From a virus, in the IMG/VR virus record IMGVR_UViG_3300032086_003167, positions 1 to 48,139 of that record: 48,139 bases of DNA; one strand, 5' to 3'. Made by a program: the position numbers and the translations under genes. Positions within the stretch are counted from its first letter, which is position 1, and the number at the start of each line of letters is the position of its first letter. Positions 260 through 24,070 of this stretch are shown here, one piece after another. The notes under the pieces were generated by a model. That model ran no database searches. It saw only the letters and a list, made by a program, of their open reading frames with translations, and was not told where the DNA came from.

Positions 260-3200
260 ACGAAGGCAATCCAGAGAAAGGTGACATCTACGGACTAGCG
301 AGAGATATTGTTTACGCCGAGATGCAGGAGTCCGATCCAACAGCACTGAAGGTTGCCCGTGGTGTCACCGAACTTCCAGCGTATGCAGTAGACATTGCGG
401 TTACGGGCGGCATCGGTGGAGTGACTAGAGGTATAGGCCGAAAGGGCATGGCAATTCTTGCGAAGCGTCTCGGCAAAGAAAAGTTCAAGAAGTTCATGGC
501 TTCGGCTGTGGTCAAAGGTGCAACTAAAGCAGCACCAGCAGTCACTGAAGCTGGTATCTACGCAGGTGTCACAGATGTTGGAGGAACGCTCGCTCAGGCT
601 CTACCACAGCGTGACCTTAAGTTCGACGAGAGCACTGAGACTGGATTCGCTGCGACCGAGAAAGACTCATGGATGAACAGCCTACCCAAGGCTGTCATCA
701 ACCAGATGAGCGAGTACCTGGTTGAAAAGGTTGGTGGTGAAGCTTTAGCGAAAGGTGCGAGTAAGATTGGAGCACCAATCCGCAAGGCAATGACACCAAA
801 GCCTACGTCAGCGGATGTGCCTGAGAACATGAAGACGTACATCCTGAATCGCATCCGTCAGTCATGGCAACGTGCTAACCCAGACGTTGGCCCAATGGCA
901 AGCCGAATCGGATTCAACGGAATGATTGCTGAGTTGGGTGAAGAGCGTGTTACCGAAATCGTACAGGGTGCTAACGAAGTCTTCTTCAGCCAGATGCCTG
1001 GCTACAACCGTGATGCTGCCCCGCAAATCGACCAACGCTTTGGCATGACTGGTGATGTCGTTCAAGAGGCTGGCTATCAGCTTGGTGTGACGGATGAAAC
1101 ACCAGAGCAAGCTTCTCAACGCCGTGATGACATGGTGACACAAGGGCTTACTGAAGTCATCGGTATCGGTGCAATGAAGGGCATGGCTGGAATGCGTAGC
1201 ACGCCAACGCCCAATGTTGAAGAGCTTGAGAAAGGCAATATGGCTCAAGCGATCCTCCCAATTAGTAGAGACGCTAACTATCAAGCTGGTGTGCAAAAGC
1301 TTATCGCTGAAGGACAGACTAGCCGCAAAGCATTTAGCCAAGTTCAAGTTCCCGGAACTAACAAAACACTCTATGACATGATGCCAAACGGCAAGGCTCG
1401 TCAGGAGTTTTTGCAGAACGCCAGTGATTACATAGACACACGGAACCGTATGGAAGCACGGATGTTGGAGCAACAGCAACAACCTCCTTTGCAGCAGGAT
1501 CAACTAGAACAACGTCCTGTAGAGCAGGATCAACCAAAACAACCTCCTGTAGAGCAGGATGTTGTGTCTGAACCGCCGGTTGAACAACAAGTACCAGAAC
1601 CACCAGAGGTGACAGAAGCTAAAGCGATTACTCGTGATTTAACACGAGCTGATGTCATGCGAATGTCGCCTGGTATGAAAGTCAATGAAACACCTCAAGG
1701 ATACGAGGTTGAAATGGGCAACGGTAAGCGTGTACTGGTTACGCTTGAAGAAGAAGGCCTTAGCAAATACACCAGTGATGCCGATTTGCGTGCAATCTAC
1801 CCCACATACTCTCAATACGACTGGTTCAAAAAGAAGTATCCAACGGTGGATGACTATGTACGGAAAGAGAGGAAACGACTGGACGCAGGTGGAGGCTTTG
1901 GTGGATTTATCATTGGGCCTGATCAGCGAATGCGAGATGATGTCGCCACGCTGGATGTTGTTGCAATTGTAAGAATAAACAATTCGGATTGGGCGCGTAA
2001 TAAGACAAGCCTGAAGCAAACTAAAACTTACATGCACGAAATGATGCACCTCGCATACAACGGTGGCATGTTTACTGATGCTGAAATGGATGCGTTGATC
2101 AAAAAGTACAGCGATCCAAACAGATCAGTGATGCAGCAGTCTGAAGACTTTGCGCAAACAGCTGAGTTCTGGGAAGAACCTGGAATGATTCAACGGTTTG
2201 TTGACTGGATTAACCGTATGGCTTCTAAGCTAACTGGTGGTCGTATCGAACTGAATGGTGAAGCTGTTCGCCGGTTGATCTACAGCGAGAACTTCTGGAA
2301 ACGAGATGTTCAAAGCATACATGATTTTCAGGTGCGAGAAGGTGATCGCCAGCAAGCTAAGCTACAGGCGAATCAGATACAGCAGCCTGATATCCAGCCT
2401 ATGGCTGACGACCTCGACTTCCGTGGTAAAGAGCCAACGCCTGGACCAGCGGATCGCTTGCCAGGTGGACGAGCAATTCCGGCAAACGTCACCAAAGCTC
2501 GTATGACATGGCGAAAAGCCGACGAGAAACAGATGGGTTTCCATTTATCACGCCAAGAAGTTTTTAACGAAGTGAATCGTCGTCGCTTCGGTTCTCCAGA
2601 ACAACGAGCTAAAGTCGATGAGGAAGCGATTGCTCGCTGGAATGATCCTAACCATACGTTTGATGTGTATGACCACGAACACATCATTCGGCTTTCCAAT
2701 GAACTAGCTCTTAGCAAAGACCCGAACGACTACGCCAAAGCCATCGACCTCATGATTCTTAAGCGTGACAAGATCGCTGATGTCGCACGTAACCTTGGCT
2801 ACGGCAAAGACCCTCTTGGGAAAACTGAAGCGTCACGACGCAAAGATGCTGTCACCGATGCGATATTTCTGAACGACAAGAAGGCTTTGGAACGCATACG
2901 CAACCGCAAGAGTTCTGACCCTCGCAAGCAGAGAGCTGGTGAAAAAGCTTGGGAACGTGAACAGGCACGACTCCAGAAAGTACGTGAATACGTCGAGAGG
3001 CTTGGCTACGAGTGGAGTGAGAAAGGCTTTACAAAGCTTGGAACGAATGTAACCGATTCGATCAAAGTTGCACGCTTTGCTATTAACACAAAGAAGAACC
3101 TTGGCCGAAGAGCCAACGACATCTTCACGGAGATCACATATGGCTTCATGCTCTCTGGCCATCAGACACAAATGGTCAACTTCCTAAGTAACACAACTTG

Positions 3201-5070
3201 GGGAGCGACGATGATGGCAGAGCAATATGCTTCAGCTGCATTGAACTCAGCTCTCGGAAACACGGATGACATCACACTGGCAGACTATAAGTTTGCTCGC
3301 AACCAACTAAAGAACATGACACCTGACAAGTTACGTGTGATTGCGATCGCTGGTCGTAATGCCATGACAAGGTTCATGTCTGAGCGTGGCGTGATTGAAG
3401 AAGAAGTTGGCATCGACGAAAAGACCAAGTACGAAGTTGCACCTGCATTGCCAGGCAAAGGTGGTCAGGCGTTCAGAGCTATCTTTGGCTTCGGCCCGAT
3501 GAGTGCTATCGACCAGTTCTACAAGACACTGTTTACCAACCTTGAAGTTGGTGTGCACGCTGCTCACCTAGCGAGAATTGAAGCTGAAGCGTTTAACCGC
3601 AAACAAAAAGATGCTTCCAAGCACATGACTGAACAGGAGATGGCTGACAGAGCGGAAGAGTTGTTGCTCGACAAGCGATCGCCAGCATGGGTAGAAGCAC
3701 TGAATCAGGCTGAACAGAAGATGTTTCAGGATGACGGTGGTGTAATCTCTCAAAAGATCATTGGTGTGTCTGAAAACATCAGAAGCATACCGCTTGTGGG
3801 TCCGGCGTTTCAGCACCTGGTTGCACCGTTCGTCCGAACACCAACTCGCATTATTGGAAACGCTTTGGTTCGCATGCCTGTGCTCGGCATACCTGTGTAT
3901 CACAAGATGTTCCAGAATTACAAAGACGGCAACCACGTGCTCAAAGGTGTAAGTCGTGAAGCACTAAGCCAAATATCAGTCGGCTTGCTAGTTGCGATGA
4001 TCTGGAATCTGGTTGATGCAGATGAAGAGGAAACAACACTGACTGGTGCGAAAGGAGCATTAGGTGAAAAGAGCCGTACATTCCGCTATCAAGAAGGTGT
4101 TGCTCCACCACAGGCTGTAAAAATCGGAAACACTTGGTATCAGTACGACAGGTTCGATCCGTTTGCGATGGCGTTAGCTACGGTTGTCGATTCTATCCAG
4201 GCACTCAAGTCTGATAAAAGCATCGGCGAGAAAGGTGCTGACGTAGCTCGCTCTATCGGCGGCTCAGTGCAAGAGAAGACCTTCTTCCGCTCTGTTGGTG
4301 ACTTAATTAAAGCAGTTGACTCAGAGGATGGTGGTCAGCGATGGGTAGCATCAGCACTCACGAGGTTTGTGCCTAACCTTTATACACAAGCAGCACGAGC
4401 ATCATCACCGACGATCACTGACTCACGAGCTGACACAGCATTTGAGTCCTTTAAGAAGCGTTCAAAGATTGCACCAGCACAAGACATCCACGATCCATGG
4501 GGTCGCAAGGCAAAGACCTCTGGTGGCATCACAGGTGTGAAAAGCAAGACTGCTGAGCCGTTTATCGGCGACCGTGTGTTTGTTAACTGGAACCGCCTGC
4601 ATCCAGAGACTGACGATCAGCGTTTCCCAACCAGGCCAAGACGTGAGTACACCTACAACGGTGTCAAACACAAGATGCCTGAAGAGCAATACGCTCAGTA
4701 TTCAGAGCTTGCAGGAACGCTTGCAAAGAACGTCGTTGAGAAGATGCTGAGCGACGACATGGCTCGCAATCCTGATGACGTAACGATGAAGATTGTCGAA
4801 GGTGCGATTAGTCGAGCCAGGATGATGGTCAAAGATCACCTACACTCCAAAGGCAATATGGACATACCGATGGAACGCTTTGAGCGTGACATGCAGAGCA
4901 AGCTGTACAGCACCGCCATCGCACCACTGAGAGCAAAGCGTCCACGACGTGGAGCATCACAGTCTGTGTATGAACAGGAAGTTGCCGAGTGGCAGTCAGA
5001 CCGTGACGCTGCTCTACGCTACGTCGAGTGGTACAGACAGCGGCCAGACAGGGTAAGGATAAGACGATGA
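1..5070 (+). CDS. Giant polyvalent virion protein with HExxH peptidase motif (3' part, continues from 47623)
   Basis: This is the 3' part of a gene that starts at 47623 and crosses the circle junction, giving about 1,775 aa in total. A zinc-metallopeptidase motif HEMMH followed by LAYNGG is encoded at 2035-2049 (about residue 765). A Gln/Pro/Glu-rich linker lies at about 1465-1615. The C-terminal third (from about 3100) has the look of the large-polyvalent-protein-associated domains seen in ejected proteins of short-tailed phages, with a hydrophobic stretch near 3960-4010. Inference: a virion protein delivered into the cell with the DNA, whose peptidase may help cross or remodel the envelope. 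It is the last gene of the late virion block, just upstream of the small membrane genes. A structural role is likely; the peptidase role rests on the motif only. Confidence 0.75.
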   Translation, partial: HAKEFRARQFLFQGGKQAAPVPWDRKDHNSATKLMNTIQWFRDNPDAVGKGDFLDIYSGVMRRMPLTFGAGELAEAVVKGKAIDRIYEGNPEKGDIYGLARDIVYAEMQESDPTALKVARGVTELPAYAVDIAVTGGIGGVTRGIGRKGMAILAKRLGKEKFKKFMASAVVKGATKAAPAVTEAGIYAGVTDVGGTLAQALPQRDLKFDESTETGFAATEKDSWMNSLPKAVINQMSEYLVEKVGGEALAKGASKIGAPIRKAMTPKPTSADVPENMKTYILNRIRQSWQRANPDVGPMASRIGFNGMIAELGEERVTEIVQGANEVFFSQMPGYNRDAAPQIDQRFGMTGDVVQEAGYQLGVTDETPEQASQRRDDMVTQGLTEVIGIGAMKGMAGMRSTPTPNVEELEKGNMAQAILPISRDANYQAGVQKLIAEGQTSRKAFSQVQVPGTNKTLYDMMPNGKARQEFLQNASDYIDTRNRMEARMLEQQQQPPLQQDQLEQRPVEQDQPKQPPVEQDVVSEPPVEQQVPEPPEVTEAKAITRDLTRADVMRMSPGMKVNETPQGYEVEMGNGKRVLVTLEEEGLSKYTSDADLRAIYPTYSQYDWFKKKYPTVDDYVRKERKRLDAGGGFGGFIIGPDQRMRDDVATLDVVAIVRINNSDWARNKTSLKQTKTYMHEMMHLAYNGGMFTDAEMDALIKKYSDPNRSVMQQSEDFAQTAEFWEEPGMIQRFVDWINRMASKLTGGRIELNGEAVRRLIYSENFWKRDVQSIHDFQVREGDRQQAKLQANQIQQPDIQPMADDLDFRGKEPTPGPADRLPGGRAIPANVTKARMTWRKADEKQMGFHLSRQEVFNEVNRRRFGSPEQRAKVDEEAIARWNDPNHTFDVYDHEHIIRLSNELALSKDPNDYAKAIDLMILKRDKIADVARNLGYGKDPLGKTEASRRKDAVTDAIFLNDKKALERIRNRKSSDPRKQRAGEKAWEREQARLQKVREYVERLGYEWSEKGFTKLGTNVTDSIKVARFAINTKKNLGRRANDIFTEITYGFMLSGHQTQMVNFLSNTTWGATMMAEQYASAALNSALGNTDDITLADYKFARNQLKNMTPDKLRVIAIAGRNAMTRFMSERGVIEEEVGIDEKTKYEVAPALPGKGGQAFRAIFGFGPMSAIDQFYKTLFTNLEVGVHAAHLARIEAEAFNRKQKDASKHMTEQEMADRAEELLLDKRSPAWVEALNQAEQKMFQDDGGVISQKIIGVSENIRSIPLVGPAFQHLVAPFVRTPTRIIGNALVRMPVLGIPVYHKMFQNYKDGNHVLKGVSREALSQISVGLLVAMIWNLVDADEEETTLTGAKGALGEKSRTFRYQEGVAPPQAVKIGNTWYQYDRFDPFAMALATVVDSIQALKSDKSIGEKGADVARSIGGSVQEKTFFRSVGDLIKAVDSEDGGQRWVASALTRFVPNLYTQAARASSPTITDSRADTAFESFKKRSKIAPAQDIHDPWGRKAKTSGGITGVKSKTAEPFIGDRVFVNWNRLHPETDDQRFPTRPRREYTYNGVKHKMPEEQYAQYSELAGTLAKNVVEKMLSDDMARNPDDVTMKIVEGAISRARMMVKDHLHSKGNMDIPMERFERDMQSKLYSTAIAPLRAKRPRRGASQSVYEQEVAEWQSDRDAALRYVEWYRQRPDRVRIRR

Positions 5071-5291
5071 GAAAACGAAAGAGATACCGCACTGACGGCC
5101 AGCACGAAGGCACGTCACGCATAGAAACACGCACAGGGGCTAAGGCCGCACGCACGGATGCCAAGGCTAATTTGATACTCGCCAAAAGCGAGAAAGCTAA
5201 ACAGACCGCAGCCAAACGGAAATGGCTTGTATTCCTCTTAGGAATGGTCATGGCTATAGCTGCATTCTTCAAATTCAAGATAGGACCCTGA
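5067..5291 (+). CDS. Small basic membrane protein
   Basis: A 74-aa protein whose ATG overlaps the upstream stop codon (ATGA), indicating translational coupling. The N-terminal 45 residues are very basic and probably helical. One hydrophobic segment follows (KWLVFLLGMVMAIAAFF, about residues 52-68) and then a short tail. It is the first of four small genes between the virion block and the convergent leftward block, the usual place for lysis genes. The layout (cytoplasmic basic domain plus one C-terminal membrane segment) would suit a holin-like or spanin-accessory protein, but no family is recognised. Confidence 0.7.
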   Translation: MRKRKRYRTDGQHEGTSRIETRTGAKAARTDAKANLILAKSEKAKQTAAKRKWLVFLLGMVMAIAAFFKFKIGP

Positions 5292-5292
5292 T

Positions 5293-5526
5293 ATGAATAA
5301 CATCACAAGCGTGATTGGAGACTTCCTCAAAAGTCTCAAATCTAAACGAGTCATTACCGGCATTCTGACCATCGTGTTCATGGCCGCATACAACTACTTC
5401 AACCTCGCTGAGGTCGGTGTGTCTGAAGACACAGTGAACAACCTCGTTATCACAGTCGCAGCTCTGATCGTCGGCGATACGATTCGCCCAGTGAATCCTG
5501 AGAAGGGAGATAGCGATGAAGGTTAG
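5293..5526 (+). CDS. Holin-like small membrane protein
   Basis: A 77-aa protein with an N-terminal amphipathic stretch, a first hydrophobic segment at about residues 20-36 (VITGILTIVFMAAYNYF) and a second at about 47-63 (NNLVITVAALIVGDTI), then a charged tail. Two membrane segments, small size and position after the late virion genes fit a class II holin-like protein. The start lies 2 bases after the preceding stop and the end overlaps the next gene by 11 bases. No sequence family is recognised, so holin is inferred from topology and position. Confidence 0.65.
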   Translation: MNNITSVIGDFLKSLKSKRVITGILTIVFMAAYNYFNLAEVGVSEDTVNNLVITVAALIVGDTIRPVNPEKGDSDEG

Positions 5527-5725
5527 AATGGTTAAACCAGGCGAACGCTATCGCTTCATGGCGAGAAGTAGTAACCCACACACACTGAGCCGGTTGGAAA
5601 CCTTAATGGCCGCTGAAGGCTACAAGCGTGTTAAGTTCCTGAGCTTCCTAGCGCACATCATCAACTTTGAATACACGATACGAGAGGATTGGTATGGAAA
5701 CGAACTTACCTCAGATGCTGACTGA
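5516..5725 (+). CDS. Small hypothetical protein
   Basis: A 69-aa basic protein. Its start (GAGAAGGGAGATAGCG then ATG) has a strong ribosome-binding site inside the end of the preceding gene. Its C-terminus overlaps the start of the next gene by 32 bases. It has no clear membrane segment, signal peptide or metal motif. Position within the tightly overlapped lysis-like cluster is the only hint of function. Confidence 0.6.
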   Translation: MKVRMVKPGERYRFMARSSNPHTLSRLETLMAAEGYKRVKFLSFLAHIINFEYTIREDWYGNELTSDAD

Positions 5726-5930
5726 TGTCGGTTTCCCAATCGGCTTGTGTCTGATTCTCTTATACGGTTTCAAGAAGGTCGGTGAGGTGCTGCTGGCTCG
5801 TGTAGTCGATCCAGTCATCACCTCGCACCGAGAGTTCCTCGTGAAGCTTGAGCAGCAGCTTGAGCTACAAGGGGAACTGGTGCGTAAGATGGTGTCTATT
5901 CAGGAAGAGATTCTGCGGAAGCTGGAGTAG
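5694..5930 (+). CDS. Single-pass holin-like protein (BhlA/UviB style)
   Basis: A 78-aa protein started at 5694 because GAGAGG stands 7 bases upstream; an earlier in-frame ATG at 5667 lacks this. It has one N-terminal hydrophobic segment (VGFPIGLCLILLYGF, about residues 11-25) followed by a charged helical region with regularly spaced Leu/Ile, predicted coiled coil to the end. This layout, including the VGFPI start of the membrane helix, resembles BhlA/UviB-type holin-like proteins. No separate endolysin was recognised nearby, so the lytic enzyme may be one of the unassigned proteins or a virion domain. Confidence 0.6.
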   Translation: METNLPQMLTDVGFPIGLCLILLYGFKKVGEVLLARVVDPVITSHREFLVKLEQQLELQGELVRKMVSIQEEILRKLE

Positions 5931-5936
5931 GTGGTA

Positions 5937-6725
5937 TTAGTAATAGCAACCAGGTGTATCTTTAAGAATCTCTCTAGCTTCTTCATCAACAGTTGATAGG
6001 TCTAGTATTAGATACTTGCATTTGGCAAGAAGTTCAGCTGACTTGTTTGAAAGGTATACTTGCTCACCACAATCACCTATGCCCAACCATTCACCTTCAT
6101 AATTTGATAGCCACTCGCATGAGATGTCTTCCATCCAATCTGCGCTTATGCCCAAACCGCCTTTGTGATGCGATAACGCTTCAGCAATAGGATCTTCATC
6201 ACCTTCATCGCTTCCAGGAATACCCTCCCAACTAAACCACAATTCGCATTCGCATTTACTAAGGAGTTTTGCAACCTCAACAGAGGGAACGAAGTTTTTT
6301 CCGAAGCCTAATCGCTTCCCTTTATACTCTTGGAATAAGGTAGCAACTTCAGGCGAAATTTCTTTCAGTCCTTTCAGGCGTATAGACTGATTCTTTTCGT
6401 TTAGTTTTTCATGGCGGATTAGAATTTTCGCTGCATCCAAATCTATGTGTGTATAGTCATCATCACGCAATCCATCATACGAAACAGCATACTCGTTATT
6501 AAGCAACTGCTTCGCAGCTTCCGCTGTCATGACCTTAACTCTGTTCGCCTCAGCTTCCCGTTCAGCTTCTATCACGGCTTGGCATTCTTCGTTATCACAC
6601 ACATCTTCAGGCCACCAGTCTTCTGGGTATGCAAGATGAGTACCGTGTATATCCCAAAGGTCAACACGCTCAATCTCTTCTCCGCATTGATCGCAGAATG
6701 CGATGCCGAAATATTCTTTACCCAT
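5937..6725 (-). CDS. Zinc-ribbon protein with leucine-rich-type repeats
   Basis: A 262-aa protein started at the ATG at 6725, which has AAGGAGA about 8 bases upstream; longer in-frame starts do not. The N-terminus carries a CDQCG...CDNEEC zinc-ribbon-like pair. From about residue 70 there are degenerate repeats built around L/I-x-L, an A-x-x-L helix and y-x-G-x-x-L-x-[LIF], repeated about five times. Such repeats are common in planctomycete proteins and hint at host origin. It is the last gene of the leftward block and ends 6 bases from the convergent lysis-like genes. Function unknown; a protein-binding role is inferred from the repeats. Confidence 0.65.
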   Translation of the reverse strand: MGKEYFGIAFCDQCGEEIERVDLWDIHGTHLAYPEDWWPEDVCDNEECQAVIEAEREAEANRVKVMTAEAAKQLLNNEYAVSYDGLRDDDYTHIDLDAAKILIRHEKLNEKNQSIRLKGLKEISPEVATLFQEYKGKRLGFGKNFVPSVEVAKLLSKCECELWFSWEGIPGSDEGDEDPIAEALSHHKGGLGISADWMEDISCEWLSNYEGEWLGIGDCGEQVYLSNKSAELLAKCKYLILDLSTVDEEAREILKDTPGCYY

Positions 6726-6771
6726 GAAACTGTCTCCTTGTGTCTGAAATACCACTTGCTTTCTAACATCC

Positions 6772-6810
6772 ATGCCGACTGATTTCAAACACACATCAAT
6801 GCCGACTGAT
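6772..6810. repeat. Two 12-bp direct repeats next to the integrase gene
   Basis: ATGCCGACTGAT occurs at 6772-6783 and 6799-6810, 27 bases apart. A partial third copy, CAATGCCG, lies at 6825-6832 inside a TGCAAT repeat. They sit in the 116-base gap between the integrase 3' end and the next leftward gene. Repeats next to an integrase are candidates for integrase arm or core sites, but they could equally be operators for the downstream gene. No attachment core can be proven from this sequence alone. Confidence 0.3.
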
Positions 6811-6841
6811 ATGACAGGTTTGTGCAATGCCGTGCAATAAG

Positions 6842-8680
6842 CTACGACCCCTTCAGCATCTGGTCAAATAGAGCGTCTTTAACTTCGCCCTGAAGCCATA
6901 CCAGTGCCGTGCATTCTGGTGCATCTGTGTCCAATAGCGTGTCGAGTTCTTGCCGGTTGACGTGCAGGAACGGTTCGGATTCGGGTTCGGATTTTACTGC
7001 ACGCACCTTGCCGACTCTGTAATTCAAGGTGTTTGAGAGCGATTCTTCGAGTCCCTCCTTCGCTACTTTTACCCCTTTCGGGATGTCGTCCGTGAGTGCA
7101 CGGTATGCTACGGGGTTGGACGCTATGAGACGCTTCAACCCCTCTATTTGTAGCTTCAACTCTACTATTTCAGCGTTTAAGACCACCTCATTCTCAACCG
7201 GCGTTGCACGCTGTAGCACGGGATCGTTAGAGTTTGATTTTGGCTGTTTGGGTTCGGATTTGGGTTCGGATTTTGAAAACAGCCCTCTCATCGCTGATTG
7301 GGTGATAGTGCTAGCATGTTGCTCAGCTGCCTGAGCCAGAGCTGGCATGTTGTCCTTCAGAGCGTCGAGAACCATTCCGAAGAAGTAAGTCGTGTGTTCC
7401 AAGCCAGCGACACGAGACTCTTTCCAGTGGCTCATAGCATCCTTCACGCCGTCACCAACGATCTGGAGATAGTGTTCTTCCTGGATCGCTTTGCTGTGTC
7501 CGATCCATTTAGCAGCGTCATGCTGATGCTGATTGAAGATTTTTACGAGGTCAGTTACCCATGAGCTGCGTGAGTTGTTGAACAGGTTTGGGATGCGTGG
7601 CTTCTCGGTGTAAGCTTCGTAGCGACCTGCATATTGCTCAGACAGGCTGAAGTCACAGTCGGCTTTACCGGCTCTCACAGCGTCCTCCTTCTCACCTTTG
7701 AACAGATAGCCGTCAGGGTTTGGTTCAGCGTCACAGAGCAGCTTAAAGATGATCCAGTTCGCATCATGGAACATTGGGCAGATGCGGCCACCGTTCTTGT
7801 GAGAGTCGATGGTAACAGTCGCACGATTGACATCGCCGTCTGCGAAATCCACATCACAGTTACGAATCCACAATGTGTCTGCTGCACCTCGTAAGCCCAT
7901 CAGTCGAGCAAGCACAATGCGAGCAAGGCTCTTGAGGTCAAACTGGCTGTTAAACAAATCCTGAGTCTCTTCGAGCGTCACGTAGCGAATGCGTGTTTCA
8001 TCCTTCTTCTTGGATGTGCGAATGCCGTAAGCAAACACATTGACCTCTATGATGGATGATGCCACAGCCCAGCTAAACAGTTCCTTCACCTGGTCAACCT
8101 GCTTAGCGACATATGTGTTTGATAGCGGCTGCTTTGGATCGAGCTTAAATTTAGTGACACCTTCCTTGGTGTAACGCACTTTCTTGCCTTGCTTCTTTAG
8201 CTGGCGAGGATAGTTCTTAGCGTCGTTCATGGTGAGGTCACGAATATCCTTATCGCCACCGAACTGATGTATCAGACGCTCAAAGGTTTGGACGAACTTG
8301 TTGACCGTTGGTGCTTTGACAACTTCCTTCTTCATCTCCAGAAACTCTTCGGTTACTGAATCGAGAGAGAACGCCGATGCACTTCGACGAGCTGCACGCT
8401 CACGCACAAGGCCATACTTCTCCAAACGATTATGTATTTGCTGGCGAACATCCTTTAGCCACTTCTGTTGCTTTCTGTCGAATGTCTCACCTTGCTCTAC
8501 TGTTCCGACCAGTGACATAACCATGTCATGCTCTTTAGTAGCTTGCTTTTCAGAGATCTTCTTAACACTTCCAAGAGGAATGTATGCGGTAACACGGCGA
8601 TTGCCCATTAGCTGCTTCCATTGAACACGCCAAGAGTACGAACCACTACCCTTCTTATTCTCTACCTGCACGAGAGCCAT
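6842..8680 (-). CDS. int: Tyrosine recombinase / phage integrase
   Basis: A 612-aa site-specific integrase expected to insert the phage into the host chromosome. The start at 8680 gives MALVQVENKKG with AAAGGG about 9 bases upstream, 4 bases after the stop of the HTH gene; a longer TTG start at 8791 runs antisense-frame through that gene and is rejected. A SAM-like core-binding region is followed by the catalytic domain: the first Arg lies in RLMGLRGAADTLW, the box II region in NNSRSSWVTD (Asn where His is usual), then WIGHS and the tyrosine in EEHYLQI. This C-terminal pattern is the style I associate with planctomycete integrases. The extra approximately 140-residue tail is low-complexity and charged. 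Confidence 0.9.
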   Translation of the reverse strand: MALVQVENKKGSGSYSWRVQWKQLMGNRRVTAYIPLGSVKKISEKQATKEHDMVMSLVGTVEQGETFDRKQQKWLKDVRQQIHNRLEKYGLVRERAARRSASAFSLDSVTEEFLEMKKEVVKAPTVNKFVQTFERLIHQFGGDKDIRDLTMNDAKNYPRQLKKQGKKVRYTKEGVTKFKLDPKQPLSNTYVAKQVDQVKELFSWAVASSIIEVNVFAYGIRTSKKKDETRIRYVTLEETQDLFNSQFDLKSLARIVLARLMGLRGAADTLWIRNCDVDFADGDVNRATVTIDSHKNGGRICPMFHDANWIIFKLLCDAEPNPDGYLFKGEKEDAVRAGKADCDFSLSEQYAGRYEAYTEKPRIPNLFNNSRSSWVTDLVKIFNQHQHDAAKWIGHSKAIQEEHYLQIVGDGVKDAMSHWKESRVAGLEHTTYFFGMVLDALKDNMPALAQAAEQHASTITQSAMRGLFSKSEPKSEPKQPKSNSNDPVLQRATPVENEVVLNAEIVELKLQIEGLKRLIASNPVAYRALTDDIPKGVKVAKEGLEESLSNTLNYRVGKVRAVKSEPESEPFLHVNRQELDTLLDTDAPECTALVWLQGEVKDALFDQMLKGS

Positions 8681-19931: not shown

Positions 19932-20080
19932 AATGCTGGCACTGTGGAGCTGAACTGATATGGGGTGGAGATCACGACTACGAGGATAGCGACCTGTTTG
20001 ACATCGTCACAAACCTAAGCTGTTCTGGCTGTAGCACTGATGTGATTGTGTACCACTCATTTGGAAAAGCCGACGACTAA
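19928..20080 (+). CDS. Small zinc-ribbon protein
   Basis: A 50-aa protein beginning MKCWHCGAELIWGG with a second pair CSGC near residue 32, a two-knuckle zinc ribbon. It starts in an ATGA overlap with the DUF3310 gene and ends the rightward early operon. It overlaps the convergent gene by 4 bases. Role unknown. Confidence 0.75.
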   Translation: MKCWHCGAELIWGGDHDYEDSDLFDIVTNLSCSGCSTDVIVYHSFGKADD

Positions 20081-20577
20081 TTAATTTTCAACGCCCAATC
20101 GGGAGCCTCATAGCCAAACATGTTTTTCCACAATGTCGCTCTGTAGCTTTTGCCTGGACGATTATATTTCCCAACCGATGCGTCTTGCATCGCATCCCAA
20201 ACACGCTCATAAAATTCTTTGTGTCGCCAAACAGCATCATCGCCTTCATCTCTATACTCTTGGCGATACTTCTCTAGCTTTGCCTCTTCCTCAATACGCT
20301 GTTGCTCAGCCCACTCTTCTGGGTTCTCTCGTCGCCACTTCTCAACAGCGGCTCGCTCAGCTTTAGCCTTCGCTTCTTCTTCTGCCCATTTAAGCTCCTG
20401 AAGCTCTTGCTGTCGCTCTTTCTCGATCGCTCGCTGCGTCTCTTCCTCCATCCGTTGTATATCACGACTGATGTAGTAGTAAGGGATTGGCATACATATC
20501 GCTAAGCCAACGATGAAGATGAGCAATTGCTTGAAGAAGCCTCGCACCCAAGTTTGCTTTGTGTCTGATGAGTTCAT
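20077..20577 (-). CDS. Membrane-anchored coiled-coil protein
   Basis: A 166-aa protein: one N-terminal hydrophobic helix (LLIFIVGLAICMPIPYYYI, about residues 18-36) followed by about 75 residues of highly charged Glu/Lys/Arg heptads that should form a coiled coil, then a small C-terminal region with KNMFGYEAPDWAL. Topology suggests a long helix reaching from the membrane, like spanin i-type or superinfection-exclusion proteins. It lies convergent to the early operon, last in the leftward block. Confidence 0.65.
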   Translation of the reverse strand: MNSSDTKQTWVRGFFKQLLIFIVGLAICMPIPYYYISRDIQRMEEETQRAIEKERQQELQELKWAEEEAKAKAERAAVEKWRRENPEEWAEQQRIEEEAKLEKYRQEYRDEGDDAVWRHKEFYERVWDAMQDASVGKYNRPGKSYRATLWKNMFGYEAPDWALKIN

Positions 20578-20584
20578 AACTCAT

Positions 20585-20803
20585 TTAGCCTAGTCGAGCA
20601 GACACATGAATGCGAATACCGACAGCTTTTGCCATTGCGTAGAGATGATCCCAAGTCGGCTCTCGCTCATTGTGTATGAACCGATGCCATTGGCTTTGGC
20701 TAATGCCTTCTGTCTTAATACCGGCTTGATTCATGCTGATGCCCTTCTCTTTCCGTACTTCTTCAATCCAGGCGAGTAGTTGTTCTTTGGTTTCAATCTT
20801 CAC
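20585..20803 (-). CDS. XRE/Cro-type transcription regulator
   Basis: A 72-aa protein with GTG start, overlapping the recombinase end by 11 bases. After a charged first helix come GISMNQAG, SQSQWHRFIH, EREPTWDHLYAMAKAVGI, which is the helix 2-turn-recognition helix and closing helices of the XRE fold. It is a candidate for the protein that binds the GTCCCCA-type palindromes at 23.2-23.5 kb, though this pairing is an inference. Confidence 0.75.
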   Translation of the reverse strand: MKIETKEQLLAWIEEVRKEKGISMNQAGIKTEGISQSQWHRFIHNEREPTWDHLYAMAKAVGIRIHVSARLG

Positions 20804-21476
20804 TGATCTGCTCCTGTCGTTTCACAATCTTCCAGACAGCGGAGCGAGTCCATGCCTTGCCTGATCGATTGGTGTATCCGTCCTCATTCAACTGATTGGC
20901 GATCTTAGTCGCACCTAATCCGGTCGTCGAATACGAGCGTATCTTAGCGAGAATGTCGGTTTCCCGTAAACACGGAATCAGTTGCGTCTGGTCGTTAGGA
21001 TCGAACTGGAAACCATACGGAGCAAACCTACCGATTCGCCTGCCCTGCTTGCGCAGGTAGTTCATCGATGCCTGAGTCCGTTCGGCAATGGTCTCACGTT
21101 CCCATTGGGCTATCGTGGCGAACATGTTGGCGATCATCCGTCCCGATGCTGTGGATGTGTCTATCGAGTCATACACACTAATCAACACCTTGGATTTCCG
21201 GTCGAATGTCTCCATGAGGTCACACCAGTCACGCACTGAGCGACTAAGCCGGTCGAGCTTGGTGATGACTACACCGTCAACTCCGGTCGTGCTTAGTCGT
21301 TTCAATGCCTGGCGAAGTCCTGTCCGTTCGACGGTCTTGCCAGACACACCCTCATCTAAGAATGTGTCTATCAATTTGTGGTCGTGCAAGTCGCAGTACG
21401 CTTGCATCTTCTCAACCTGGTTGGCGATCGTCTGCTGATCTCCGGTCGAGACTCTGGCGTATCCTATGAGTTTCAT
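20793..21476 (-). CDS. Serine recombinase (resolvase/invertase family)
   Basis: A 227-aa protein starting MKLIGYARVSTGDQ (catalytic Ser10), with DEGVSGKT (41-48), KLDRLSRS (73-80) and the E-helix region MIANMFATIAQWERETIAERT, then a short recombinase/HTH domain with LGATKIANQLNEDGY and an Arg-rich C-terminus. The ATG at 21476 with GGAGA upstream is preferred over a TTG at 21512, which however has its own GAAAGG within the upstream hairpin. It could catalyse inversion, resolution of dimers or a second integration pathway; the genome also has a tyrosine integrase. Confidence 0.9.
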   Translation of the reverse strand: MKLIGYARVSTGDQQTIANQVEKMQAYCDLHDHKLIDTFLDEGVSGKTVERTGLRQALKRLSTTGVDGVVITKLDRLSRSVRDWCDLMETFDRKSKVLISVYDSIDTSTASGRMIANMFATIAQWERETIAERTQASMNYLRKQGRRIGRFAPYGFQFDPNDQTQLIPCLRETDILAKIRSYSTTGLGATKIANQLNEDGYTNRSGKAWTRSAVWKIVKRQEQISED

Positions 21477-21505
21477 GTCGTCTCCGGTCGTGCTATGATT
21501 TAGAT

Positions 21506-21555
21506 GTGTCAATTGATCCTTTCAGGCTCTACTTCGGTAGAGTTGATCGACACAG
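21506..21555 (-). promoter_or_regulatory. Structured leader of the recombinase gene
   Basis: A long hairpin: GTGTC 21506-21510 with GACAC 21551-21555, GATC 21515 with GATC 21547, and CTCTAC/GTAGAG (21527-21542) around a TTCG loop on the plus strand. On the minus-strand RNA, GAAAGG (a ribosome-binding site for the TTG at 21512) lies in the internal loop. It shares CTGAAAGGATCAA with the leaders of the upstream genes. Confidence 0.55.
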
Positions 21556-21558
21556 GCG

Positions 21559-21585
21559 AGGGCTTCGGCTCTCGTCTTTTTTTGG
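21559..21585 (+). terminator. Plus-strand terminator in a leftward-coding region
   Basis: CGAGGGC (21559-21565), TTCG loop, GCTCTCG (21570-21576) then TCTTTTTTT. It works only for rightward transcription, though all genes here read leftward. It would stop transcripts running on from the early operon, which would be antisense to the XRE and recombinase genes. Confidence 0.75.
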
Positions 21586-21592
21586 GTCCTGA

Positions 21593-21829
21593 CTATCGTC
21601 TGATCTCGTATCCTGTAACATCGACACATTCACACGCCAAGCCGAATTCTGGTGAATTGCTGAAGTAAACCCAGTCGTCGCTTATGAAGTGGTCAATGTA
21701 CGATTCACGCTCTAGGAACTCTTCAAAGAGTTTCCGGTCTTCTGGTTCGAGTTCGTCGGCGGTTCCGTATACCAACGCACAGAGAGCCCATGTGGGAAAA
21801 GTATATTTAGCTGTTTCGATTAATTGCAT
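21593..21829 (-). CDS. Small acidic hypothetical protein
   Basis: A 78-aa protein, started at 21829 behind the repeated GATC-hairpin leader. It is acidic (pI low) with ELEPEDRKLFEEFLERE in the middle and VYFSNSPEFGLACECVDV near the end. No motif recognised. It is directly downstream of ArdA and separated from it by hammerhead ribozyme A; small acidic proteins in such loci are often host-enzyme inhibitors, but this is speculation. Confidence 0.6.
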   Translation of the reverse strand: MQLIETAKYTFPTWALCALVYGTADELEPEDRKLFEEFLERESYIDHFISDDWVYFSNSPEFGLACECVDVTGYEIRR

Positions 21830-21864
21830 TGTGTCTGATCCTTTCAGAGATCGAGCGAGGGTCT

Positions 21865-21922
21865 GCCTCGTCAGTGTATGGCGAACAACTGCCACACAGA
21901 CGCCCACAACGGGCGTTTCGGC
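21865..21922 (-). ncRNA. Type II hammerhead ribozyme A
   Basis: Minus-strand RNA reads GCC-GAAA, stem III ACGCCC/GGGCGU, then GUC (cleavage expected between 21899 and 21898), stem I UGUGUGGC/GCCAUACA with an 8-base loop, core CUGACGA, and closing stem II GGC with the starting GCC. All catalytic-core residues (CUGANGA, GAAA, A15.1-U16.1, C17) are present. The ribozyme begins directly after the TAA of ardA and precedes the leader of the 78-aa gene, so cleavage would separate the two messages. Confidence 0.88.
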
Positions 21923-22453
21923 TTACTCGCTGAAAATGTGGTACTTGTTGCGATACTCAACGAACGTATACCCAAACTCCCAACAATACGCAATCTTTTC
22001 CCAATCACACCAGGTCTCGAAGAATTCGCGCTCGTATCCTGACAACGGGCAACACTCCATAAACTGATCCTCGCACCATTTTCTCTTGTCTTCTTGGTGC
22101 GCTGGTATCGCTCCGCAGTAGTGCTCCTCAAAGAGTTCTTTATTCCATGTGCCGCAATTGCTCACGTAAGCTTCGACGGCTTCTTGTCCGAGTTCTTCCC
22201 AGCATTCGACACGCTCGGCGATATGGTCAAGGTCTTCGTATTCGCTCATTCTGCCGAATCCCTCAAAGTCGTGGATTGCCCATTCTTCGGCGTATGGTTC
22301 CGGGCTCCGGTCGAGCATGGCTTGAACTCGTGCTTTTAGCTCGTCGGCGTCTGCTGTCGCTTCGATCCATTCACCATGCAGGATGCCAGCGTTGTATGAT
22401 GCCAAGCATGCAACATAGATTCGGCCCATGTGTGATTGTGTTTGAGTAGTCAT
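21923..22453 (-). CDS. ardA: ArdA antirestriction protein
   Basis: A 176-aa protein started at 22453 behind the repeated leader. Recognisable ArdA blocks: RIYVACLASYNAGILHGEWI (about residues 10-29), the SPEPYAEEWAIHDFEGFG region (about 50-70), then a helical acidic second domain. ArdA is an acidic DNA mimic that blocks type I restriction enzymes, and early expression on entry protects phage DNA. The C-terminal third is rich in Trp and Cys and more divergent. It is flanked on both sides by hammerhead ribozymes. Confidence 0.9.
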   Translation of the reverse strand: MTTQTQSHMGRIYVACLASYNAGILHGEWIEATADADELKARVQAMLDRSPEPYAEEWAIHDFEGFGRMSEYEDLDHIAERVECWEELGQEAVEAYVSNCGTWNKELFEEHYCGAIPAHQEDKRKWCEDQFMECCPLSGYEREFFETWCDWEKIAYCWEFGYTFVEYRNKYHIFSE

Positions 22454-22487
22454 GTGTTTGATCCTTTCAGAGATCGATTGAGGGTCT

Positions 22488-22544
22488 GCCTCATCAGTGA
22501 ACAGCGAACCAATGCTGCTCAGACGCTCCGTAGAGCGTTTCGGC
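22488..22544 (-). ncRNA. Type II hammerhead ribozyme B
   Basis: Minus-strand RNA: GCC-GAAA, stem III ACGCUC/GAGCGU around UACG, GUC (cleavage expected between 22522 and 22521), stem I UGAGCAGC/GCUGUUCA (one G-U pair) with loop AUUGGUUC, core CUGAUGA, closing GGC. It begins right after the TAA of the 65-aa gene and lies upstream of the ardA leader. Stem sequences differ from copy A while pairing is kept. Confidence 0.88.
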
Positions 22545-22742
22545 TTATTTGATCGCGCCGAGCTTCTGGAGCTCCTTGCGGAGCTCGTCGCATCTCTGGC
22601 GATACACACACTCTGTCTCGTGCCATCCTCTAGACTGCCGAAGGCTTGTAGACTCGCTCCAAAGCTTTCGGATTTTAATAAGCTCTAATTCGTACCAGTA
22701 AAGCTTGTCGGCGAGTGTTGCAATTTGTTTTTTCTTAAACAT
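22545..22742 (-). CDS. Small helical hypothetical protein
   Basis: A 65-aa basic protein (MFKKKQIATLADKLYWYELE then LIKIRKLW...) predicted to be two helices, ending in LRKELQKLGAIK. The ATG follows the repeated GATC-hairpin leader; the stop codon is fused to ribozyme B. No family recognised. Confidence 0.6.
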   Translation of the reverse strand: MFKKKQIATLADKLYWYELELIKIRKLWSESTSLRQSRGWHETECVYRQRCDELRKELQKLGAIK

Positions 22743-22777
22743 GTGTTTGATCCTTTCAGAGATCGTGTTAGGGAGTT

Positions 22778-22903
22778 TTAGCGTGTGGTAATAATCCACT
22801 TGTCGAAGTTGTTAGCCCAATTTTCAACTTCAAATCGGATTTCATTCGCGTGAAGGAGTGTAATTATTTCAACCATTGATTTGGTGGATTCGCAGTAAAT
22901 CAT
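22778..22903 (-). CDS. 41-aa hypothetical protein
   Basis: A short gene started at 22903 behind the repeated leader, encoding MIYCESTKSMVEIITLLHAN followed by a segment with FEVENWANNFDKWIITTR. Its boundaries are supported by the leader upstream and by the next leader 14 bases downstream. No ribozyme lies between this gene and the next, so these two would stay on one message after processing. Confidence 0.55.
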   Translation of the reverse strand: MIYCESTKSMVEIITLLHANEIRFEVENWANNFDKWIITTR

Positions 22904-22943
22904 TGTGTGTGATCCTTTCAGAGATCGTGTTAAATGTCGGCTT

Positions 22944-22998
22944 GTCTCATCAGTACCAGGAAGCCAAACCTGGTAGACGCTCCGAGGAGCGTTTCGAC
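22944..22998 (-). ncRNA. Type II hammerhead ribozyme C
   Basis: Minus-strand RNA: GUC-GAAA, stem III ACGCUC/GAGCGU around CUCG, GUC (cleavage expected between 22976 and 22975), stem I UACCAGG/CCUGGUA with loop UUUGGCUU, core CUGAUGA, closing GAC. Stem II is GUC/GAC here versus GCC/GGC in copies A and B, a compensatory change. The first G is the last base of the TAG stop of the 63-aa gene. Confidence 0.88.
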
Positions 22999-23189
22999 TA
23001 TTTGCGAGTAAAGCATTTGAAATCGTCGTACAAATCCAAATCGCACAAGAATGCCTCTCGGCTTCTCTCGTACAAGTTAACGAGCATGGACTCGGCAAAC
23101 TTTCGTGTTTGCTCTGGTGTCATCTCGGCGATGACATGCTCGGCTAGTTTACGTTCGATGCTTCGTGCTGCTTTTGGTGTGGTAGCCAT
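22998..23189 (-). CDS. Small helical protein, first gene of the ribozyme operon
   Basis: A 63-aa protein, basic N-terminus (MATTPKAARSIERKLAEHVI) followed by helices with MTPEQTRKFAESMLVNLYER. It is promoter-proximal, about 57 bases downstream of the predicted start of transcription, and has the repeated leader. It could be a small regulator, but no DNA-binding motif is clear. Confidence 0.6.
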   Translation of the reverse strand: MATTPKAARSIERKLAEHVIAEMTPEQTRKFAESMLVNLYERSREAFLCDLDLYDDFKCFTRK

Positions 23190-23232
23190 TGTGTTTGATC
23201 CTTTCTGAGATCGTGTTAAAAACGTTTCAGCT

Positions 23233-23248
23233 GTCCCCACTTGGGGAC
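23233..23248. promoter_or_regulatory. Operator-like palindrome 1
   Basis: GTCCCCACTTGGGGAC: two perfect 7-bp arms around CT. It overlaps the expected transcription start of the leftward promoter at 23253-23281, where a bound repressor would block it. Confidence 0.7.
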
Positions 23249-23252
23249 CCCC

Positions 23253-23281
23253 AAGATATCGACGAATTAAACCGTTGTCAA
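23253..23281 (-). promoter_or_regulatory. Promoter of the leftward ardA/ribozyme operon
   Basis: On the minus strand TTGACA (23281-23276), 17-base spacer, TATCTT (23258-23253). It is flanked by operator-like palindromes on both sides and is the only good promoter seen for the genes down to the serine recombinase. Confidence 0.75.
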
Positions 23282-23289
23282 TAGTTTTT

Positions 23290-23304
23290 GTCCCCATTCG
23301 GGAA
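23290..23304. promoter_or_regulatory. Operator-like half-conserved palindrome 2
   Basis: GTCCCCATTCGGGAA, matching the left arm of operator 1 exactly and the right arm partly. It lies 8 bases upstream of the -35 element. Confidence 0.55.
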
Positions 23305-23438
23305 TATTTTTCTTTATTCTTCTAAATACTTAATATCGATAGTTATCAATGATTAAAGCGTTGACAGTGTGCGTACAATATAAAGACACAGGACAACGAG
23401 CGAGCCAGAGTGTTAGTCGTCGGCGTGTCTGTCTCGCG

Positions 23439-23454
23439 CTTCCCAATTGGGGAC
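23439..23454. promoter_or_regulatory. Operator-like palindrome 3
   Basis: CTTCCCAATTGGGGAC, one mismatch between arms, same family as operator 1. It lies on the rightward side of the intergenic region, about 200 bases before the first late gene. Confidence 0.6.
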
Positions 23455-23491
23455 AGAGCAAGAGCAGAGTTAACCAGGGAGAGCTTGCCAT

Positions 23492-23505
23492 GTTCCCAAC
23501 GGGAC
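23492..23505. promoter_or_regulatory. Operator-like palindrome 4
   Basis: GTTCCCAACGGGAC, a slightly shorter member of the same palindrome family, about 135 bases before the first late gene. Confidence 0.5.
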
Positions 23506-23639
23506 AGAGTGAAACGCTTTATATACAGTGTTTTGATGGTTTCCCTGGTGTTTTGGTGGTGTTCTTAAAATTGAACCAAATCCCCCACCCCACCACTGGA
23601 GTCCCACGTATATAGTCCCTAAGCCCCGCGCACAGAAAA

Positions 23640-23927
23640 ATGAAAACCCAAAACCTCAAAGCCGTCCGTAACGCCGTCAACATCGTCGAGAACAAGCTTA
23701 GCGGCTACCGCACGGAGCACTTCATGGGAGCCCATCAGGCCGCACAGATGGCGTTTAGGAACGTTGTGCAGACACTGTCGGCAAATGGCTGGATTCCGCA
23801 CGATGACGCAGAGGTTTTGATACAAGAACAGGAGTCACAATGGCTGAAACAGTGGAACTACACGCCGCTTGGCGATGGGACTGCCCAGAATGTGGACGTG
23901 AACAATGGGTACGAGGAATTCAGTTAG
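23640..23927 (+). CDS. Hypothetical protein, first late gene
   Basis: A 95-aa protein (MKTQNLKAVRNAVNIVENKL...) with a helical, basic N-terminal part and an acidic C-terminus ending NNGYEEFS. It overlaps the following gene by 88 bases in a different frame, unusual for this genome. The first two-thirds look like genuine coding sequence; the overlapped tail is less certain. No family recognised. Confidence 0.55.
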   Translation: MKTQNLKAVRNAVNIVENKLSGYRTEHFMGAHQAAQMAFRNVVQTLSANGWIPHDDAEVLIQEQESQWLKQWNYTPLGDGTAQNVDVNNGYEEFS

Positions 23928-24070
23928 AGAACGAACATTTGTCGCAAGAGCAGCGTGACCGCTTAGCAGAAGCTGAGTGGTGGGTGTTGTATCCAGAGAT
24001 GGTGCAATGCAGCGATTGCAAGAGTCCCTACTACGTACAACAAGGACAAGAAGATGCCGAAGGTTGGTAA
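23840..24070 (+). CDS. Zinc-ribbon protein
   Basis: A 76-aa protein with AGGAG 7 bases before the ATG. Two cysteine knuckles, CPEC (about residues 15-18) and CSDC (about 57-60), flank a helical insert, consistent with one zinc ribbon. Highly acidic overall. It lies at the front of the late block; related small Zn proteins occur at several other places in this genome. Function unknown. Confidence 0.65.
   Translation: MAETVELHAAWRWDCPECGREQWVRGIQLENEHLSQEQRDRLAEAEWWVLYPEMVQCSDCKSPYYVQQGQEDAEGW

Follow-up and report, generated by a model that had tools for sequence, protein, structure and literature searches.

Clustered hammerhead ribozymes in prophages were described by Perreault et al. in 2011 (PMC3088659), including a triple arrangement around the antirestriction gene ardA in Agrobacterium tumefaciens that cleaves both in vitro and in E. 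coli. The same study reported ardA downstream of a hammerhead in Legionella, a pseudoknot between loop I and the tail, and a U3-A8 variant of the core, and cited C3U/G8A (U3-A8) ribozymes as active in vitro. A 2017 review (PMC6155905) still regarded what prokaryotic hammerheads do biologically as an open question. The phage locus analysed here represents a further example of the described array type, since clustered arrays around ardA had been published in 2011; a preliminary description of this DNA took the serial hammerhead array to be new, a view that the published triple array contradicts. The array is real and well conserved, and its central idea was already in print.

Searches of the window (the whole virus record IMGVR_UViG_3300032086_003167, 48,139 nt) with the Rfam covariance models revealed three matches to RF02276 (Hammerhead_II) on the minus strand, all exceeding the curated gathering score of 37 bits; these are the only gathering-level Rfam matches in the window. 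An independent descriptor, composed of the hammerhead core and three uninterrupted stems, found the same three copies and gave no false positives in 3.3 Mb of Markov-randomised sequence. The ribozymes are as follows:

22944-22998, minus strand: ribozyme 1, type II hammerhead (RF02276 match 22999-22935, 49.9 bits, E 2.2e-7; descriptor 22998-22944; predicted cut 22976/22975)
22488-22544, minus strand: ribozyme 2, type II hammerhead (RF02276 match 22545-22480, 41.6 bits, E 3.3e-5; descriptor 22544-22488; predicted cut 22522/22521)
21865-21922, minus strand: ribozyme 3, type II hammerhead (RF02276 match 21923-21857, 43.2 bits, E 1.2e-5; descriptor 21922-21865; predicted cut 21899/21898)

The catalytic core GAAA / GUC / CUGANGA, with GUC at the UH position of the family, is complete in all three copies, as seen in the sequence and by the descriptor (CUGACGA in ribozyme 3); stem II is open, stems I and III are closed, and cuts are predicted after GUC at 22976, 22522 and 21899. 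The preliminary description had placed three minus-strand type II hammerheads in these segments, with the same cores, three stems and cut sites, and had proposed a covariance-model comparison of the minus strand, which gave three matches, all over the threshold (49.9, 43.2 and 41.6 bits against a cut-off of 37). It mentioned neither the pseudoknot of loop I with the tail nor the stop codons next to the ribozymes, both considered below.

Relatives of the phage were found by ArdA and terminase searches of virus contigs, and are referred to as L004, L005 (the same contig as L134), L128 and L125. The order on the minus strand of the window is gene A, ribozyme 1, genes B and C, ribozyme 2, ardA, ribozyme 3, gene E and a serine recombinase gene; the features other than the ribozymes are listed in the direction of transcription:

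23253-23281, minus strand: sigma-70-type promoter, TTGACA / 17-nt spacer / TATCTT (consensus scan)
22998-23189, minus strand: gene A, 63 aa (homologues 93.7% identical in L004 and 83.9% in L128)
22904-22930, minus strand: common leader, approximately ACACGAUCUCUGAAAGGAUCAAACACA, one of five copies, containing a small GAUC...GAUC hairpin that encloses the Shine-Dalgarno sequence
22778-22903, minus strand: gene B, 41 aa (L004 homologue 97.6% identical)
22545-22742, minus strand: gene C, 65 aa (L004 homologue 92.3% identical), following B without a ribozyme
21923-22453, minus strand: ardA, antirestriction protein, 176 aa (PF07275, 7.2e-24, 85.6 bits; PHROG 2059 anti-restriction, 1.9e-20)
21593-21829, minus strand: gene E, DUF6926 family, 78 aa (PF21977, 8.2e-10)
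20793-21476, minus strand: serine recombinase gene (PF00239, 1e-40), downstream of the array

Gene A has no Pfam or PHROG match. Judged by sequence similarity, the gene between ribozymes 2 and 3 can be assigned firmly to ArdA, and the suggestion in the preliminary description of an antirestriction gene in a hammerhead-bearing operon is thereby borne out (PF07275, 85.6 bits). A homologue of gene E follows a hammerhead in the phage contig L007, gene E is not present in L004, and a search of viral contigs for relatives of gene E yielded none that passed. The serine recombinase gene possibly belongs to the same transcript as the array; in L004 and L005, too, a homologue of it lies downstream of the array.

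The promoter is the one promoter-like site found at 20000-24000, where shuffled DNA gives a mean of 4.0; since shuffled DNA gives more such sites, the scan is weak alone and the promoter call rests mainly on its position and on the layout, which is the same in L004. An operator-like palindrome, GTCCCCAAGTGGGGAC, lies over the start site at approximately 23248-23233. Repeated operator-like palindromes, GTCCCCAATTGGGAA and variants, occur in the window at 23454-23440, 23304-23291 and 23248-23234, at least two of them upstream of the one at the start site; in L005 and L128 the start site of the promoter carries another palindrome (ATATCCA..TGGATAT), a difference like that between immunity types. 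Because of the operator-like palindromes at the start site and upstream of it, the operon is probably under repressor control. The four other leader copies stand directly before genes A, C, ardA and E, and in this phage and its relatives a hairpin leader around the Shine-Dalgarno sequence is found at nearly every gene of the array. Its stem is mostly GAUC/GAUC, with UUUCAUC/GAUGAAA and CUAAUC/GAUUAG in L005, and this covariation favours pairing of the leader hairpin in the RNA; the literature searched held no description of a covarying ribosome-binding-site hairpin before each gene.

A stop codon adjoins stem II in all three copies of the window: the TAG of gene A shares one base with stem II of ribozyme 1, and ribozymes 2 and 3 begin directly after the TAA codons of gene C and ardA, respectively. 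The space between genes B and C (22777-22743) contains no ribozyme.

An alignment of 15 hammerhead copies from this phage and three relatives (L004, L005 and L128) was scored against the structure including the pseudoknot. Pairing was found in 93.6% of the pair cells (stem II 100%, stem III 98%, stem I 95%), with double-sided changes at 16 of the 23 pairs and compensatory change in all four helices, the loop I-tail pseudoknot included. None of 500 shuffles reached the observed covariation score, and slid controls lowered pairing to 32-49%; the shuffle control leaves kinship in and the slid control retains it, and the two agree. The preliminary description had pointed to covariation of the stems between copies, which is real and stronger than it could show. 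The pseudoknot, a frequent but not invariable feature of type II hammerheads, has double changes at four of its six pairs in the family alignment and comprises up to 7 bp in ribozyme 1 (UUGGCUU/AAGCCGA), 4 bp in ribozyme 2 (GGUU/GACC) and 3 bp in ribozyme 3, the weakest of the three. Among 162 copies from other phages, the mean score of pseudoknot pairing was 9.5 with the true tails versus 6.85 with swapped tails (sd 0.15). The compensatory changes in stems I-III and in the pseudoknot, in 15 copies from four phages, indicate that the hammerhead fold is under selection.

A scan of virus contigs with a degenerate pattern, which provides a sample and not a census, revealed at least 119 loci; the Rfam model confirmed 46 of the first 50 contigs at E 0.001, 29 of them over the curated cut-off. 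The loci listed contain 184 copies, and 30 loci have two or more; the copies are co-directional in 30/30 of these multi-copy loci, with a median spacing of 520 nt, and exactly one ORF (>=35 aa) is present in 41 of the 64 intervals between neighbouring copies. In 91 of 152 non-redundant copies (60%), the upstream stop codon has its end between -3 and +1 nt relative to stem II, versus 2.7% of random positions; the latter were drawn from intergenic and coding DNA alike, so part of the excess reflects the intergenic location of hammerheads as such, and it is the narrow maximum at 0 that carries information. Within the sample, a median of 26 nt separates stem II from the following start codon. No report of the stop-codon placement was found in the literature searched, which mostly excluded subscription journals, and the words 'stop codon' do not occur in Perreault et al. 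(PMC3088659). One contig, L015 (IMGVR_UViG_3300038412_000035), has an array spanning about 5 kb (approximately 2569-7558) in which the descriptor counts nine type II hammerheads and Rfam, at E 0.001, ten.

In the window, ardA is flanked by ribozymes 2 and 3. A search of 50 other hammerhead contigs turned up no ArdA, a soft negative, as the control genomes were also without a match, and the descriptor found no type II hammerhead at 80 bacterial ArdA loci. A general link between ArdA and hammerheads was rejected on these counts, and ArdA is not defining for such arrays, given its absence from the 50 other contigs. Two type I candidates were observed on ArdA-holding Legionella contigs, L220:3425 about 0.6 kb upstream and L209:641 about 3.4 kb upstream, in agreement with the Legionella cases of Perreault et al. 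(PMC3088659).

Each of L004, L005 and L128 carries four hammerheads; a single copy in L005 and another in L128 fall below the threshold. These low-scoring copies (L005:2843-2906 and L128:91-26) have the core AUUGAUAA instead of ACUGAUGA, with C3U accompanied by G8A; they were considered as dead ribozymes and rejected as such, because the two changes form a covarying pair that has been reported active. With a slash for each ribozyme, the architectures are A/B C/ardA/E in the window, A/B X/C/ardA/ in L004, X/Y/Z/ardA/... in L005 and n/A/n/n/ in L128. L004 thus contains an extra gene X and a ribozyme between B and C, and the B-C junction of the window is a hybrid, its left side being that of the L004 B-X junction and its right side that of the L004 ribozyme-C junction; on this sequence comparison, the difference reads as one clean gain or loss of a gene together with a ribozyme. 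A conserved plus-strand terminator directly follows ribozyme 3 in L004, where gene E is absent. The presence of X with its ribozyme at B-C and the lack of gene E in L004 indicate gene gain and loss in units bounded by ribozymes and leaders, and the literature searched held no description of such turnover between relatives. L125, with a terminase 99% identical, has an ardA operon and no hammerhead, so the arrays are dispensable in this lineage. At L125:5175-5100 and L125:4195-4090 (minus strand) there are GC-rich structured intergenic elements, each followed by the string UUUACUCACUAAUCAC, which they share, and a leader. Known ribozymes were dropped as an identification, as neither element has an Rfam match even at E 5; possibly they are a different element in the same role.

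The presence, structure, conservation and position of the hammerheads are matters of observation. The most likely account of them, to which we give a probability of about 0.7, is that these are three functional type II hammerheads, predicted to self-cleave, that act as cis punctuation of an early phage operon: selection acts on the fold, the copies consistently lie between genes, and activity in vitro and in E. coli has been published for the counterpart. Genes A, B, C, ardA and E would be transcribed as one RNA, in which each ribozyme would fold as soon as it is made and cut 22-24 nt past the preceding stop codon. The products would be four in number, A, B-C, ardA and E, and E might extend into the recombinase gene. 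The upstream product of each cut would close with its stop codon and the stem III hairpin and carry a 2',3'-cyclic phosphate. The downstream product would bear a 5'-OH immediately at the stem I hairpin; its own ribosome-binding site would come next, the whole 5' leader measuring some 68-72 nt. RNA ends of this form are expected to hold back exonucleases and decay that depends on the 5' end, and to let each piece be translated and degraded independently. Cleavage in vivo and its effect on stability or translation are what we infer. The stability consequence is argued from how RNA generally decays and from RiboJ, a hammerhead that, placed at the 5' end, about doubles transcript abundance in E. 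coli, an effect for which the terminal hairpin has been suggested as the cause (PMC6206723). Transcript processing, the reading offered in the preliminary description, holds as the best explanation of the array, with cleavage predicted; the division into single-gene mRNAs that it envisaged applies to A, ardA and E, and B-C would stay bicistronic, so strict one-gene pieces are not required. Several points count against functional punctuation: 4 of the 18 consensus hammerheads of Perreault et al. were inactive in vitro (PMC3088659), the pseudoknot of ribozyme 3 has 3 bp only, and the ardA operon of L125 is free of hammerheads.

It is a serious possibility, at somewhat under even odds, that what selection maintains is modularity: the ribozyme with its leader would serve as an interchangeable connector, at which accessory genes can be replaced in the operon with the expression of the neighbours unharmed, the tuning of the mRNA of a particular gene would be secondary, and the repeats could also act as recombination points. 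Gene content does vary among the window, L004, L005 and L128 while ribozymes and leaders stay, and both the hybrid B-C junction, a clean gain or loss of a gene with its ribozyme, and the lack of gene E between ribozyme and conserved terminator in L004 are what such exchange predicts. However, phage accessory genes are often exchanged without any ribozyme, L125 manages without, and exchange of this kind is compatible with cis punctuation and does not exclude it; the apparent crossover point falls just beyond the identical repeat, so repeat-driven recombination is not proven. The stop-codon placement (60% of 152 copies, and all three here) brings in the ribosome, whose footprint extends some 10 nt beyond a stop codon: a ribosome terminating the upstream gene would cover stem II and GAAA and delay the cut, so that the ribozyme would report translation. 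We consider such gating unlikely, as the close packing may just minimise the spacer in compact genomes and the cutting may precede the arrival of the ribosome.

Dispensability in L125 and the C3U/G8A core changes in one copy each of L005 and L128 could also be expected of relic or selfish hammerheads with no present role in the phage, yet the strong compensatory changes in the helices and the precise placement after stop codons make this very improbable, and the two changes of C3U/G8A covary as a pair, ribozymes with which Perreault et al. cite as active in vitro. That the three are chance hairpins resembling hammerheads is suggested by the smallness of the motif and nothing else, and is practically negligible: E values of 3.3e-5 or better three times in about 1 kb, no false positives in 3.3 Mb and the covariation rule it out. 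Cis cleavage thus stays the preferred account, with ribosome gating and cassette exchange as plausible extras to it. A bolder combination, tentative and to be doubted rather than expected, would make the type II hammerhead and the hairpin ribosome-binding leader a standard joint of phage operons, set flush on the preceding stop codon, gained and lost as one cassette together with accessory genes, and perhaps with its timing set by the ribosome as it terminates; if true, the phage builds its operons from self-releasing mRNA modules. The locus and its relatives, with four, three or no ribozymes in the ardA operon, offer a compact test system, and the stop-codon rule (60% versus 2.7%), if valid beyond the sample, is a quantitative fact that any functional account must explain.

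Compared with the RF02276 family, the three copies share the core, the open stem II, the closed stems I and III, the pseudoknot and a score above the threshold, and nothing in them falls outside the family range. With ribozyme insulators of the RiboJ type they have in common a defined 5' end and a terminal hairpin before the ribosome-binding site; RiboJ differs in that it was engineered from the sTRSV hammerhead and stands behind a promoter, not between the genes of an operon (PMC6206723). Pelagibacter phage Jormungand (L260, MT375528.1) has an ardA region with a hammerhead-like motif, and its neighbours ardA, marR and integrase are those named for A. tumefaciens, but the motif is a single type I candidate recognised by the descriptor only, with no Rfam match; it lies at approximately 4800-4890, at the end of gp49, with stems of 6, 4 and 10 bp and a cut after GUA. 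The closest described system is the A. tumefaciens array, to which the locus is likened by the published description and not sequence-to-sequence. Activity was measured there and cleavage is predicted from sequence here, and by its terminase this phage is related only distantly to cultured phages (22-26% identity among the matches listed). As in clustered phage hammerhead arrays, three same-strand copies stand between A, B-C, ardA and E; ardA lies next to a hammerhead, as in A. tumefaciens and Legionella, a feature that such arrays do not require; and the locus shares with the A. tumefaciens array serial hammerheads that border ardA and a gene without assigned function within DNA of phage origin.
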